Shown here: positions 8,425 to 14,603 of the stretch, piece by piece
Layout of the letters: each line of letters opens with the position of its first letter
Position numbering within the stretch: position 1 is the stretch's first letter
DNA from: Pseudomonadota bacterium
GTDB taxonomy: Bacteria; Pseudomonadota; Gammaproteobacteria; Burkholderiales; Burkholderiaceae_E
Assembly: GCA_029779755.1 (NCBI GenBank)
Contig: JAKOZZ010000189.1
Span: 1 to 32,062, forward strand
Length of the DNA: 32,062 nt
Direction of reading: 5' to 3'
Program-made: the position numbers and the translations under genes
The notes under the pieces: model-generated
The model's input: the letters and a program-made list of their open reading frames with translations, nothing else
What the model was told of the DNA's origin: nothing
Databases searched by the model: none

Positions 8425-9168
8425 CTATGCGTACTCCGGCACCGCGTAACCGGTCTGCCGCAGCACGTGCTCGCGGTCGCGTGCCGTGAGCCCCTTGTAC
8501 CAGGCGGCGAGCTCCTTCACCGGAAGGCCGCCTTTTGCATACGGTGGCGGCGGCTCGCCGATCGCCTGGTACACGTTGGCCCAGGTGCACAGGTAGTACA
8601 CCGTCTTCTGGTTGGTGCCGCGCTCGATCAGGCCTTCGGCGCGCAGCGAGGCCAGGAAGAAGCGGTCGCACCACATCGCCATCGGGCGCGGCATCAGGCT
8701 CCAGCGCGGGATGGTGTGGAACGCACCGCGCAGCAGGAAGTAGCAGTTGGTGTCGACGTGCGAGCCGTCGAGGTCCTCGTCGATGCGCACGTCCATCACC
8801 GAGCCGTCGGCACGCGCCCACCAGCGCATCGCGGTCACGTAGTCGGCCTTGCCGTCGGCTGCGGCGTCGACGCACAGCGCCACGTGCTCCGGTGCGTACC
8901 AGTTGTCGGCGTCGAGGAATGCGATCGCGTCGAAGCCTTCCGCAGCGGCCAGCAGGCCGCCGATCGTGCGCGGCGTGTTGCCGTAGTCGGCATGGGCCTT
9001 GCCCAGGCGCACGTGACGCACGCCCATGTCGTCCAGCCAGTCCTGCGGATGACCGTCCGACACCAGGAAGTGCGTCGCCTCGTGCGTCTGGTCCTTGACG
9101 CTCTGCAGGCAGCGGGCCAGCCATTCGGCCGGCTCCTTGTAGTACGGGGTGACGACGGCAACGCGCAT
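8425..9168 (-). CDS. glycosyltransferase, GT2/GT-A-like
   Basis: MRVAVVTPYYKEPAEWLARCLQSVKDQTHEATHFLVSDG...GFDAIAFLDADNWYAPEHVALCVD: GT-A nucleotide-binding start and DAD-type motif. Confidence 0.82.
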   Translation of the reverse strand: MRVAVVTPYYKEPAEWLARCLQSVKDQTHEATHFLVSDGHPQDWLDDMGVRHVRLGKAHADYGNTPRTIGGLLAAAEGFDAIAFLDADNWYAPEHVALCVDAAADGKADYVTAMRWWARADGSVMDVRIDEDLDGSHVDTNCYFLLRGAFHTIPRWSLMPRPMAMWCDRFFLASLRAEGLIERGTNQKTVYYLCTWANVYQAIGEPPPPYAKGGLPVKELAAWYKGLTARDREHVLRQTGYAVPEYA

Positions 9169-9391
9169 GTTCGGACTCTCCGTGGGGCCGGCTGCGCCCG
9201 CGGCGCGCCGGAAGCCTGTTCGGCGGATGGTGAGGCGACTATACGGACGCAGGGCGCTGCGGATGTCGCGAAATGGCGCGCCAACCGTTCGCTATTCGCG
9301 GCTTGCCGCGCGTCGGGCGGGCCCTAAAGTCGGTGCATATCCTGTCCGCGGTGTTGCGGGCGGATCCACCACCCATCACGGAGTGCTCCCG

Positions 9392-10600
9392 ATGTCCGGC
9401 AATCGCAGGTATCTCGTCGTCGTCCGCGCGGGGGACGACTCGCTGCACGAGCGCTGGCTCGCGGCCAGCGAACGCAACTGGGATCTCGTCGTCAGCTACG
9501 GCGGTGACGACGCCCAGATCTTCCGGCGCCCCGACGTGATGCGCATCGACGGCAAGGGCGCGAAGTGGCCCGCGCTGCGCGAGCTGCTCGCGTCCGACGC
9601 CGTCGACTGGCGTGCGTACGACTACGTGTGGCTCACGCAGGGCGACATGATCACGACCGGCGAGGACGTGTCGCGCATGTTCGACATCTGCAGCGGGCTC
9701 GACCTGTGGGTCGCGCATCCGGCGCTGCACCGCGACAGCCCCACCAACCACACGATCACGCTGCACAACCCGGCGTTCGGCCTGCGCTTCGTGAACTTCG
9801 TCGAGGCCACCGCACCGGTGTTCCAGACACGGTTCCTGGGCGCGGTGCTGCCGTCGCTGCAGCTCAACGACAGCGGCGGCGGCCTCGGGTACCTGTGGCC
9901 GCGGCTCGTCGACGACGCCGGCCGCCGGTGCGCGGTGATCGACTCGGTGCCGATGCAGCGCATGCGCCCGATGCACGGCGCCGTGCGGTTCGAAGAGGCG
10001 CCGGTCACGGCCGAGCGTCACGACACCGTGCAGGTGATGGCCGCGTTCCAGATCGCCGAAGCGGCAGAGATCAACATCGGGGCGCTGATGCGCAGCGGTG
10101 AGCGCTATTCGCTGTTCGACGACAGCTGCGATGCCTTCATGGGACGCATCCTGCGCGGCATGGTCGGCGTTGCCGCCGGCCCGCATGCGCTGGGTCTGGT
10201 CTACATGGCGCACGAGCGCGCGCGTCGTGCCGGCCCGCTGGCCGTGCAGACGGTGGCATCGGGTGTCGTGTCCGGCGATGCCGCCACGCGTGCGGCCCCG
10301 GCGCCGTCCGCGCCCGCCGTGCCGATGGCGTCGCTCCCGGCGGCCGCGTCGGTTGCACCTGCCGCACCGATGTCTGTCGTGGCGCCGATGCCTGCTGCGG
10401 CGCCGATGTCTGCGGCGCCGATGTCGGCCGCGGCCCCGATGCCCGCCGCAGGGGGGCGCACGCCCGGCGCGTCGGCCGGCACGTTCGAACCCACGGTGGG
10501 CGCGGGTGCCGGGCCCACCCCGGACGACATGGAGAGCATGGCGGCCCTGCGCAAGCTCGCGATGTCGGTGCGCCGCACGTCGCTGCGGCAGCCGGCCTGA
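9392..10600 (+). CDS. DUF707-like (putative glycosyltransferase-type) protein with Ala/Pro/Met-rich C-terminal tail
   Basis: YLVVVRAGDDSLHERWLAASERNWDLVVSYGGDD...YDYVWLTQGDMITTGEDVSRMFDIC resembles DUF707 proteins; last ~120 aa low complexity (PMSAAPMSAAAPMPAA). ATG at 9392. Confidence 0.7.
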   Translation: MSGNRRYLVVVRAGDDSLHERWLAASERNWDLVVSYGGDDAQIFRRPDVMRIDGKGAKWPALRELLASDAVDWRAYDYVWLTQGDMITTGEDVSRMFDICSGLDLWVAHPALHRDSPTNHTITLHNPAFGLRFVNFVEATAPVFQTRFLGAVLPSLQLNDSGGGLGYLWPRLVDDAGRRCAVIDSVPMQRMRPMHGAVRFEEAPVTAERHDTVQVMAAFQIAEAAEINIGALMRSGERYSLFDDSCDAFMGRILRGMVGVAAGPHALGLVYMAHERARRAGPLAVQTVASGVVSGDAATRAAPAPSAPAVPMASLPAAASVAPAAPMSVVAPMPAAAPMSAAPMSAAAPMPAAGGRTPGASAGTFEPTVGAGAGPTPDDMESMAALRKLAMSVRRTSLRQPA

Positions 10601-10674: not shown

Positions 10675-10716
10675 GTCCGAGTCCGAGTCCGAGTTCGAGT
10701 CCGAGTTCGAGTCCGA
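10675..10716. repeat. hexanucleotide tandem repeat GTYCGA x7
   Basis: gtccga gtccga gtccga gttcga gtccga gttcga gtccga, directly after the terminator hairpin, intergenic. Confidence 0.9.
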
Positions 10717-10783
10717 GTCCCGAGGACGGATCATGCGCAGGGCGCCCGTGCCCCGCGCCCGGCCTGGCGCCCGGGGCCGCCGC

Positions 10784-11440
10784 TCACGCGCGCTGAAGTG
10801 CAGCCGGTGCGGCGCCCATGCGCAGCCGTGCGATCCGCTGATTTTCCGCCTTGCCGCGCCGGACCATCTCGGTCGGCGCGGTGCAGGCGATGTCGTGCGT
10901 CTTGATCAGCGCCCAGGTCGGGTACTTGCAGTAGGGGTTGTCGTGCTCGACCCGCTCGGTGAGCAGCAGTTCACCGCCGGTCTGGCGCACGAACTCGTTG
11001 ACCGCGTCCATCACCAGCGGCCAGTCCGGATGGTAGTCGTCGCCGGCGATCACGCCGCCGACCTTCACCTTGCGGAACCATTCGAAGATCGTCTCGCCGC
11101 CTTCCTCGCCGCCGTGCGCGTAGCCGTCGACGTAGACGAAGTCGAGCGATCCGTCGTCGAACAGGTCGATGGCTTCGTCGAAGCGCATGCGCAGCAGTTT
11201 GTAGGGCGCCTGCAGCCCGACGCGGCGCAGCGCGCGCTTGTATTCGGCGGTGTCGTGCAGATCGGCGTACATGTCGATGCCGATGAAGGTCGAGAACCGG
11301 CCTGAGCGCACCATGCGCTCGGAGAACACGCCTTCGGCCACGCCGAGCTCGACCCCGACGTTGTCGTTGCCTTCGAGCAGGTGCACGACGTCGTGGCGCT
11401 GGCAGTTGCGCAGGACGCGGAAGGGGACGGGCACGATCAC
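10784..11440 (-). CDS. class I SAM-dependent methyltransferase (Methyltransf_24-like)
   Basis: NDNVGVELGVAEGVFSERMVRSGRFSTFIGIDMYADLHD...SLDFVYVDGYAHGGEEGGETIFEWFRKVKVGGVIAGDDY. GTG start at 11440 (or 11434) inferred; the ORF-track extension to 11959 overlaps the next CDS. Confidence 0.8.
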   Translation of the reverse strand: MIVPVPFRVLRNCQRHDVVHLLEGNDNVGVELGVAEGVFSERMVRSGRFSTFIGIDMYADLHDTAEYKRALRRVGLQAPYKLLRMRFDEAIDLFDDGSLDFVYVDGYAHGGEEGGETIFEWFRKVKVGGVIAGDDYHPDWPLVMDAVNEFVRQTGGELLLTERVEHDNPYCKYPTWALIKTHDIACTAPTEMVRRGKAENQRIARLRMGAAPAALQRA

Positions 11441-11469: not shown

Positions 11470-12057
11470 TCAGGCCCGGCGCGTGTTGGCCAGCAGCAGA
11501 CCCGTCTGGGCCAGGTAGATCGCTCCGTCCATGGCCGCGAGCTTGCGCACGCGCTTGGTGTCCTCGACCATCACCTGGCAGCCGCGTTCGGCGAGATGGT
11601 GGATCCAGTACTCGGTCGGCTGCTCGTTCACGTGGTGATGGCCGCCCTGGCCCGGCAGTGCGTTCGTCATCAGGATGAAGCGGCCGGCGCACATCGACTC
11701 GAGCAGGTTGTCGAGGTAGCGTTCCTCGATGTGCTCCACCACCTCCTGGCAGTGCACCAGGTCGACCCGTGCGCGCACCGGCCCGCGGGTGAGGTCGAAA
11801 TGGATCGCCGGGTACAGCGAGTTCGTGACGTTGGACGGCTCGCCCTCGACGGCCAGCACCCGCAGGCCGCGCCCGAAGAAGAATTCGCTCGCGTGCCCCA
11901 TGCCCGATCCCAGGTCCAGCACGGACTTCAGGCACAGCCGTTCCGTCACGTAGTTCCACACCGACGGCGCGAAGGTGAACGGGTCGCCCTCCTTGATGTT
12001 GCCGCCCAGGTGCGGGGCCTGCGGACTCGCGTTGTTGGTCAGGCCGGCGTAGCTCAT
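11470..12057 (-). CDS. class I SAM-dependent methyltransferase
   Basis: LCLKSVLDLGSGMGHASEFFFGRGLRVLAVEGEPSNV...RVDLVHCQEVVEHIEERYLDNLLESMCAGRFILMTNALPGQGGHHHVNEQP. Start overlaps upstream stop by 4 bp (ATGA). Confidence 0.85.
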   Translation of the reverse strand: MSYAGLTNNASPQAPHLGGNIKEGDPFTFAPSVWNYVTERLCLKSVLDLGSGMGHASEFFFGRGLRVLAVEGEPSNVTNSLYPAIHFDLTRGPVRARVDLVHCQEVVEHIEERYLDNLLESMCAGRFILMTNALPGQGGHHHVNEQPTEYWIHHLAERGCQVMVEDTKRVRKLAAMDGAIYLAQTGLLLANTRRA

Positions 12058-14474
12058 GCGATCTCCAGGAGGGATGTGGGCCGCTCGGTGGACGGCCGGA
12101 GGTGTTGGTTCAGCAGGGCCGCGGCGCGCTCGGGCGTGCCGGCCCGCAGGCGGCAGATCACGGCACCTTCCAGCGCCGCGTCGTCGGCGGCGTCGAGCTC
12201 GAGCAGCGCTTCGTACAGCGCCCCCGCTTCGACGACGTCACCGTGGTCGAGCTGCAGGCGCGCGAGCAGGTGCAGCGCACCGTGGTGGCGCGGCTGCAGT
12301 TCGAGCGTGCGGGCCAGCGCCGGCTCGAACAGGTCGATCCGTTCGAGCTGCAGGGCGGCCCGCGCGACCCGGTAGTGCGCCTGCGGATCCGAGGGCGTCA
12401 GCCGCGTGGCCCGCTGTGCCGACGCCAGGCTGCCGTCGAGGTCGCCGGCGGTTTCGCGCAGTTCCGCGGCCGACAGTGCGATTGCAGGGTCATCGGGGTG
12501 CTGTGCCTCCATCGCCGAGACTTCCGTCAGCGCGGCCTGCTCGAGCAGCGCGCTGCGGTGCGGCGCACCGGCCCCCCGGGCGTCCGATGCATCGTCCTCC
12601 GAGGTGAACGGCGCGTCGCCCGAGGGGGTGAACGGCGCGTCGCCCGACGGGGTGAACGGCGTGGCGTCCGACGAGGCGCGCGGCGTGGCCTCCGACGCGG
12701 CTGCGCTGCGCCCGCTGTCCATCGCCTGCGCAATCGCCGGGTGGTTCGGGTTGACCGCCACGGCGACGATCAGGCCTGTCTGGGTGGTGACGGACGCGAG
12801 GGTCATGTCGATGCGCGCCAGCAGGTCGGCGAGCTCGTCGGCCGTCCACTCGCGGCAGTGGGCCGGGTGCGCGGGCGGGCCCTCGTCGGCGCCCGGCACC
12901 TGCGTCGTGCGCTGGGTGCTGGTCAGCACGAGGGCCGGCGCATGCTCGAGCAGCGCGCGCAGGATCGACAGCGCGGGGCGCGGGTCGGCAAGCCGTTCGA
13001 GCAGCCCGGCACAGGCGATCACGCTGTGTGCGAGCAGGGCGTCCGGCAGCGGCAGCGGCGCCAGCGCCTCGAAGTCGGCCTCCAGCCACTGCACGGCCGG
13101 ATGGGCGAGGCGCCCGGTCTCGACCGCCTCGCGCGAAGCGAAGGCGATCCGCTTGAACGCGGTCGCCGCGGTGGCGAAGCCGGTGACGTCCTCGGTGCCC
13201 AGGCCGATCACCGTGTCGCAGTCCAGGGCCTGCGCCAGCTCGCCGGCCACCGTGTAGGCCAGTGCGTGCCGTTGCGCGTCGATCGCGGAGGTGTCGGCCT
13301 CGACCCGCGTGCGGGCCCGGTACCCGGCCGGCAGCGCGAGGTCGATCGCCCCGGGCGGGTCGATCGCCGGAGCCGCCGCGTCGGCGGTCCGTCGCACGCC
13401 GTACAGGATCGCCTGTCCGACTTCCAGGCCGGGCGCCGCCTGCACGTCGAAGAACTCCTGGAGCTGCGCCACCCACCAGGACACCGGCCGCACCGTCAGG
13501 TGCAGGTTCTCGCCGTTCGGCCCGAGCAGTCCGCTGGGGCGGGTGGACACGGTCACCAGCATCGAGTCGGCCAGGCGCGCCGCCTGCCGGAACACGATGC
13601 GCAGATCGTTCTCCGTCAGGTGTTCCAGCACGTCGGTCGACACGAAGCGGTCGAAGTGCTCGTCGATCATCGCCAGAGTGATGCAGTCGCCGCGCACCTT
13701 GCGGCGCACCGGGATGCGCGCGAACGCCACCTCGGACACCTCGATCGCGGTGACCTCGTTGCCCATGCGCTCCAGGTGCTGCGACAGTGCGCCGGTGCCG
13801 GCGCCGAATTCGATGATCCGTTCGCCGGTGAGCTGGATGTCGAGGCGCTGGAACAGGGCCAGGCCTTCACTCACAACGTACTGCGGATGCTGGCTGAAGC
13901 AGAAGTCGTACAGCTGCTTGTACGGGTACGACGCGCCGTACAGGGTCACCCCGGGCAGGGTCAGCAGCACGTCGAGCTCGCTGCGCGCATGCACCGTCTG
14001 GAACGCGGGGTCGGGACGCCAGTAGTGCCCGCTGCGGAATCCGTCGAAGCCGAACGCGTCGACCGGGATGCCCAGGTGCGCGCACAGCGCCAGCAGCGAC
14101 AGTCCGGTGGAGGGCTTGGGCAGGTCGGGCAGCAGCGCGTGCACGTCGGTGCGCGCGGCCAGCACGGGCACGGCGTTGTCGGCCCGGTACGCCGCCAGGT
14201 TCCCGGATTCGTGCGCGTCCTCGGTGAACGGTGACAGCTCCAGGTGCCGGTCGTGGTGCCTGATGTCGTGCCAGCCGCTGGTCACCCGCAGCGACGTGCG
14301 CTGCCCGACCATCGCCTCATGGCCGGTGATCTCGAAATTGTTCAGCCGGATCACGGTTGCGTAGCGGTCGATCAGGCTGCCCATCGGCCGGTCGGGAAGA
14401 CCGTTGCCGACGACCGCGATCGGTCGGCGCAAGGACAGCAGCACGTCTTCGGTGCAGAGGGTGGGGGCAGGCAT
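12054..14474 (-). CDS. multidomain protein: GT29 (sialyltransferase-like) domain + SAM methyltransferase + degenerate Rossmann-like segment + low-complexity linker + TPR
   Basis: N-term RPIAVVGNGLPDRPMGSLIDRYATVIRLNNFEITG...KPSTGLSLLALCAHLGIPVDAFGFDGFRSGHYW (GT29-like); GERIIEFGAGTGALSQHLERMGNEVTAIEVSEVA...FDRFVSTDVLEHLTENDLRIV (MTase); C-term SLASAQRATRLTPSDPQAHYRVARAALQLERIDLFEPALARTLELQPRHHGALHLLARLQLDHGDVVEAGALYEALLELD (TPR). Confidence 0.82.
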   Translation of the reverse strand: MPAPTLCTEDVLLSLRRPIAVVGNGLPDRPMGSLIDRYATVIRLNNFEITGHEAMVGQRTSLRVTSGWHDIRHHDRHLELSPFTEDAHESGNLAAYRADNAVPVLAARTDVHALLPDLPKPSTGLSLLALCAHLGIPVDAFGFDGFRSGHYWRPDPAFQTVHARSELDVLLTLPGVTLYGASYPYKQLYDFCFSQHPQYVVSEGLALFQRLDIQLTGERIIEFGAGTGALSQHLERMGNEVTAIEVSEVAFARIPVRRKVRGDCITLAMIDEHFDRFVSTDVLEHLTENDLRIVFRQAARLADSMLVTVSTRPSGLLGPNGENLHLTVRPVSWWVAQLQEFFDVQAAPGLEVGQAILYGVRRTADAAAPAIDPPGAIDLALPAGYRARTRVEADTSAIDAQRHALAYTVAGELAQALDCDTVIGLGTEDVTGFATAATAFKRIAFASREAVETGRLAHPAVQWLEADFEALAPLPLPDALLAHSVIACAGLLERLADPRPALSILRALLEHAPALVLTSTQRTTQVPGADEGPPAHPAHCREWTADELADLLARIDMTLASVTTQTGLIVAVAVNPNHPAIAQAMDSGRSAAASEATPRASSDATPFTPSGDAPFTPSGDAPFTSEDDASDARGAGAPHRSALLEQAALTEVSAMEAQHPDDPAIALSAAELRETAGDLDGSLASAQRATRLTPSDPQAHYRVARAALQLERIDLFEPALARTLELQPRHHGALHLLARLQLDHGDVVEAGALYEALLELDAADDAALEGAVICRLRAGTPERAAALLNQHLRPSTERPTSLLEIA
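12604..12675. repeat. 24-bp in-frame tandem repeat (~3 units)
   Basis: gtgaacggcgcgtcgcccgaggg / gtgaacggcgcgtcgcccgacggg / gtgaacggcgtggcgtccgacgag; period 24 bp (starts 12604, 12628, 12652), encodes (TPSGDAPF)n on the minus strand. Confidence 0.85.
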
Positions 14475-14579: not shown

Positions 14580-14603
14580 GCGAGGGCGAGGGCGAGGGCG
14601 AGG
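14580..14603. repeat. hexanucleotide tandem repeat GCGAGG x4
   Basis: gcgagggcgagggcgagggcgagg, intergenic, ~105 bp upstream of the 806-aa gene start on the minus strand. Confidence 0.85.

Follow-up and report, generated by a model that had tools for sequence, protein, structure and literature searches.

Results

A phage-like set of putative glycan-modifying modules fused in one bacterial protein

Analysis of the window (the whole stretch of DNA studied here, 32,062 nucleotides) revealed an 806-aa protein whose parts match a glycan-decorating gene set of tailed phages, in which they are separate genes, whereas here they are fused in one chain. Its residues 1–185 are a GT29 (sialyltransferase-family) domain by family and by fold. 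With a probability of roughly 0.55, judged from the sequence, we read the protein as a multidomain enzyme that decorates surface glycans, in which the GT29 domain would add an acidic ulosonic sugar, the first methyltransferase domain (MT1) would methylate, and a second one (MT2) together with a TPR domain would serve for docking. The protein is organized as follows:

12054..14474, minus strand: the whole 806-aa GT29/methyltransferase/degenerate methyltransferase/repeat linker/TPR protein (ORF with an ATG start)
13920..14474, minus strand: GT29 domain, residues 1–185 (Pfam PF00777, phmmer to ST3Gal1, Foldseek to 2wnb)
13380..13889, minus strand: MT1, class I methyltransferase with an intact motif I, residues 196–365 (Methyltransf_11)
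12675..13379, minus strand: MT2, degenerate methyltransferase-like domain, residues 366–600 (similarity to an Azospirillum Methyltransf_23 protein)
12603..12673, minus strand: in-frame tandem repeat linker with a 24-bp unit, APFTPSGD (TRF)
12057..12554, minus strand: TPR domain, residues ~641–806 (TPR_16, TPR_19)

The codon-phase GC is typical of the genome in each domain of the ORF (GC3 0.87–0.95, compared with 0.93 for lipA) and is shifted in the antisense 710-aa ORF and in the ORFs of other frames, thus indicating that the 806-aa ORF is one continuous gene. GGAG is located just 5′ of its ATG, there is no frameshift or internal stop, and its stop codon overlaps the start of the following gene by 4 nt (ATGA). 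A preliminary description of this DNA had proposed a single ORF here, and the codon-phase GC, the GGAG and the ATGA overlap bear this out; all features that it listed, from the GT29-like N-terminus to the TPR, are present. The protein is probably soluble and cytoplasmic.

The N-terminal domain belongs to the GT29 family

The PF00777 profile matched the ORF far above chance, with a score of 40.7 bits vs. a cut-off of 23 (Pfam), the best stretch covering only model positions 58–106, and a single-sequence phmmer search of the PDB matched porcine ST3Gal-I at E 9e-4. Sialylmotif L (VVGN..RLNN, residues 20–61), sialylmotif S (PSTG, residues 121–144) and motif III (residues 150–152, where H150-Y-W falls on the HYW) could all be aligned to ST3Gal1. 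In the VS-like motif, H162-x3-E166, the histidine is present and the spacing is HxxxE, not HxxxxE; the H-x4-E form is retained in the phage relatives L170 and L172. An AlphaFold (AF2) model of the domain, built from 16 GT29 rows, reached pLDDT 73 and pTM 0.74, and its 31 best PDB fold matches were all GT29 or GT42 sialyltransferases (TM by query length 0.36–0.56), with 2wnb matched at E 3e-7 (Foldseek). The sialyltransferase-like character first noticed by eye is thus corroborated by the Pfam score, the motif alignment and the fold matches, and the GT29 match lies at the N-terminus where it had been predicted.

The domain shares sialylmotifs L, S and III (HYW) and the fold with GT29 sialyltransferases of PF00777, such as porcine ST3Gal-I (2WNB) and human ST6GalNAc2. 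Unlike these enzymes, the 806-aa protein is bacterial, shows no visible membrane anchor, carries the HxxxE form of VS and is fused to a methyltransferase and a TPR; moreover, a sialic-acid synthase was not found in its genome. Proteobacterial GT29-like proteins with sialylmotifs are already known, and the domain described here has both family and motifs in common with them (PMC5811610). The proteobacterial GT29s that we found are mostly single-domain, whereas this domain groups apart from them, with GT29s of phage contigs.

One intact and one degenerate methyltransferase, a repeat linker and a TPR

MT1 matched Methyltransf_11 with E 8e-12 (46.1 bits vs. a cut-off of 21.2, Pfam), and its glycine-rich motif I, IIEFGAGTG, is intact, in agreement with the complete class I SAM-methyltransferase motif reported at the outset. 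A GENLHLTVRP..WW signature at its C-terminus is common to its phage and chromosomal relatives, and its AlphaFold model has a pLDDT of 76–92 across residues ~216–345. MT2 is 30% identical over 193 aa to the Azospirillum Methyltransf_23 protein and has VIGLGTED at the position of VIDIGCGG in this relative, so that the glycine motif I is gone. The Methyltransf_23 signal is weak (E 0.042, Pfam), hhalign found no match between MT2 and the MT1 profile, and the AlphaFold model of this region is poor and not reliable. By its sequence, MT2 is a degenerate methyltransferase lacking SAM motif I and should not be classed as an active methyltransferase; this is the segment that had been described as Rossmann-like without a clear glycine motif.

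The linker comprises 3.0 copies of its unit with 91% matches (TRF), in keeping with the repeat originally seen. The C-terminal TPR, likewise recognized earlier, matched TPR_16 with E 1.7e-13 (51 bits vs. 32.7, residues 639–806 searched alone) and TPR_19 with 5e-8; PilW-like profiles were among the matches.

The GT29 domain groups with GT29s of phage contigs

The closest GT29 domains found are on IMG/VR contigs, with 41% and then 34% identity, and these contigs carry phage genes (a head maturation protease, a helicase). The domain groups with the phage-contig GT29s with a support of 98/98 in a careful tree and an SH-aLRT of 94 in a larger quick tree, although the patterns that retrieved the phage-contig sequences had been modelled on the window; the hits were then verified with the window's own sequence (tblastn). 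Some alignment rows carried invented or altered letters solely to shape such patterns, and no conclusion rests on them.

Among 80 viral loci found from MT1-type methyltransferases, a GT29 gene was nearby in 7, while the 78 viral loci found from phage GT29 bore a GT8-like gene in 56 cases, an MT1-type methyltransferase in 48, a GT9-type gene (often with TPR) in 35 and Methyltransf_24 in 12; a GT29-MT1 fusion was not found in any of these 78 loci. When viral GT29s from all scans, the MT1-seeded one included, were pooled and clustered at 85% identity, the resulting 63 clusters had a GT8-like neighbour in 35, a GT9-type one in 24, Methyltransf_24 in 13 and an MT1-type methyltransferase in 33, and since a methyltransferase with the G-x-N-x-H motif occurred in only 16/63, part of what the looser MT1-type counts pick up may be generic methyltransferases. 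Among 50,697 cultured-phage records, by contrast, only 4 were matched by the MT1 domain (tblastn).

The set of GT29, MT1-type methyltransferase, GT8-like, TPR-GT9 and Methyltransf_24 genes is common on tailed-phage contigs (L108, L160, L170, L172, L183–L261), sometimes with radical SAM or sulfotransferase-like genes and in several cases with virion structural genes on either side. The modules are the same as in the 806-aa protein, and in some loci of L108, L160, L170, L172 and others (IMG/VR) GT29 directly precedes an MT1-type gene; the difference is that the phages keep them as separate genes amid virion structural genes, as opposed to a single fused gene. In one phage lineage (L160/L119/L171), the GT29 gene overlaps the following MT1-type gene via ATGA, amid head and tail genes. 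Two phage contigs, L106 (4137–6812) and L152 (3900–6590), encode ~890-aa single-chain proteins in which MT1-type and FkbM-like methyltransferases are combined with an oxygenase-like C-terminus and with an N-terminal region that looks DUF115/MptE-like by eye. Another viral contig, L214 (IMG/VR 3300035698_015077), carries several divergent GT29 genes in tandem.

The gene opens an island that is missing from its slot in three sister species

The 806-aa gene is the first gene of an island and of a three-gene operon, next to which lie:

11470..12057, minus strand: small methyltransferase of MT1 type, second operon gene (hhalign to the MT1 profile, probability 97%, E 1e-10)
10784..11410, minus strand: Methyltransf_24 protein, third operon gene (Pfam E 8e-10)
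9389..10600, plus strand: convergent ORF with an Ala/Pro-rich tail, glycosyltransferase-like by eye
8425..9168, minus strand: GT2 glycosyltransferase, at the other end of the island (Glycos_transf_2, E 1e-10)

The Methyltransf_24 protein is 34% identical to the product of a gene in GT29-bearing phage contigs. Family searches gave no match for the convergent ORF, which may be DUF707-like. Hexamer tandem repeats, GTCCGA x7.7 (10675–10720) and GCGAGG x4 (14580–14603), lie at or near both ends of the operon and are possible slippage sites. Genes for Wzx, Wzy, a ligase or sugar-nucleotide synthesis were not found beside the 806-aa gene.

In three sister species, the order dacC-dat-lipB-lipA and nmo is conserved and the island is missing from the lipA-nmo slot; this variable interval contains a hisC recognizable by eye in two of them and several other genes in the third. 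By its nucleotide composition the island does not look foreign, suggesting that it was not transferred recently or that its donor genome was similar, and no RNA families or tRNAs were found in the window, so that no tRNA marks an integration site. The 806-aa gene was probably acquired horizontally, a direction of transfer that we infer.

The missing island in the sister species, together with the degenerate MT2 and the altered VS motif, would also suit a decaying cassette, phage-derived or otherwise horizontally acquired, that has no current function and is retained by chance. We regard this as distinctly improbable, as the gene has no frameshift or stop, the codon-phase GC is genome-typical in all domains, motif I is intact and the operon overlaps are preserved.

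Distribution and related fusions

GT29 is rare: counting the source genome each time, it is borne by 4/399 genomes of the order, 6/369 of the class and 9/399 of the phylum; within the family it is found in the source genome only (1/74). Across ~1,980 genomes, the whole architecture was not encountered in a second protein, and the GT29 part had no match in 50,697 phage and 72,556 plasmid records. Two further scans of genome contigs yielded no relative, their narrow peptide patterns making this weak evidence of absence. The combination had initially been called unusual, and this stands for the whole architecture, which is unique in the sets searched and not a common annotated family there; it does not stand for the pairing of parts, given the independent fusions in genomes G692 and G468 and the phage loci where GT29 and methyltransferase genes are neighbours. 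In particular, two G692 proteins (L021 and L025) have a GT29 fused to an MT1-type remnant, as in the 806-aa protein, but in reversed order, the remnant being N-terminal and degenerate, and without a TPR, while a G468 protein has weak TPR matches ahead of GT29. The idea that a GT29-methyltransferase fusion is unique to the source genome was therefore rejected. The two G692 fusion genes lie ~12 kb apart.

MT1-type genes also occur beside TPR-GT9 genes on the chromosome of G029, where they adjoin type IV pilin genes, and beside one such gene on that of G033. Such neighbourhoods, as well as the PilW-like profiles among the TPR matches, may point to a protein acceptor (a pilin, a flagellin or another secreted protein), which the TPR would dock while the GT29 and the methyltransferase build and cap its glycan. 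This explanation is possible but doubtful, because the window contains no gene for a pilin, a flagellin or another acceptor and the TPR profile matches are generic.

At the G029 locus (L099, 5636–13671), two genes resembling those of type IV pilins lie close to an MT1-type methyltransferase, a GT8-like gene and four TPR-GT9 genes, which makes it a candidate for pilin glycosylation.

Discussion

In this work, we described a protein whose putative function is best read from its sequence as that of a single-chain sugar transferase and O-methylase with a scaffold, as had been supposed in the preliminary description, although the methylation may be on O or on N. The preliminary interpretation is thus supported in part; drawn from the sequence alone, it had no view of the phage link or of the failure to find a sialic-acid synthase. 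The GT29 membership, the intact motif I, the ATGA operon, the island missing from the slot in sister species, the MT1-type genes beside TPR-GT9 genes in G029 and G033, and the phage and fusion parallels counted for a glycan-decorating enzyme, while the HxxxE spacing, the lack of Wzx/Wzy/ligase or sugar-nucleotide neighbours, the non-foreign composition and the chance that the MT1 profile also catches generic methyltransferases in viral loci counted against it. For such an enzyme, we infer the activity, donor, acceptor, step order, and the roles of MT2 and the TPR as follows. The GT29 domain would use a CMP donor to place an acidic ulosonic sugar on a glycolipid precursor or a surface glycan; MT1 would next methylate the product, possibly as a cap; and MT2, no longer catalytic, would join the TPR in holding the acceptor or partner proteins, e.g., the two methyltransferases whose genes come next in the operon.

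The donor for this protein is more likely to be CMP-Kdo than CMP-sialic acid, a Kdo-type sugar being favoured by the failure to find NeuB, by the plant precedent and by the expectation of CMP-Kdo in any Gram-negative. A NeuB model that does detect the enzyme in control genomes gave 0 matches in the source genome, a MAG whose completeness of 82% makes this absence soft, and NeuB was not found in 5/6 same-genus-level relatives either, three of the relatives searched being 98–99% complete. A plant GT29 is, on genetic evidence, a Kdo transferase: Arabidopsis RCKT1/MGP2, which transfers Kdo to pectin RG-II (PMC11288761), belongs to the same family and sets a precedent for a Kdo donor, differing from the 806-aa protein in being a Golgi plant enzyme with no fused methyltransferase or TPR. 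It nevertheless may be that the GT29 does transfer a nonulosonate (sialic, pseudaminic or legionaminic acid), with the synthesis genes in the missing part of the MAG or a scavenged donor, as all GT29 enzymes among the PDB matches are sialyltransferases; the NeuB searches and the Kdo-using plant enzyme make this unlikely.

As a more speculative extension of the glycan-decorating reading, which we consider a long shot, a bacterium might have captured a phage glycan set and merged it into a single chain, which would attach a Kdo-type sugar at the cell surface and cap it with a methyl group, e.g., altering or hiding a phage receptor, while the phage versions would apply this chemistry to virions or to glycans of the host.

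Sequence data repeatedly turn up GT29 proteins of bacteria and phages, and no activity for any of them was found in the literature searched. The GT29-methyltransferase fusion, whose parts are frequent neighbours in phages, provides “Rosetta stone” evidence that both act on the same product, and the 806-aa protein offers one expressible chain with which donor, acceptor and methylation could be identified. Its main interest is that it links modules which phages carry as a gene set that is still poorly understood.
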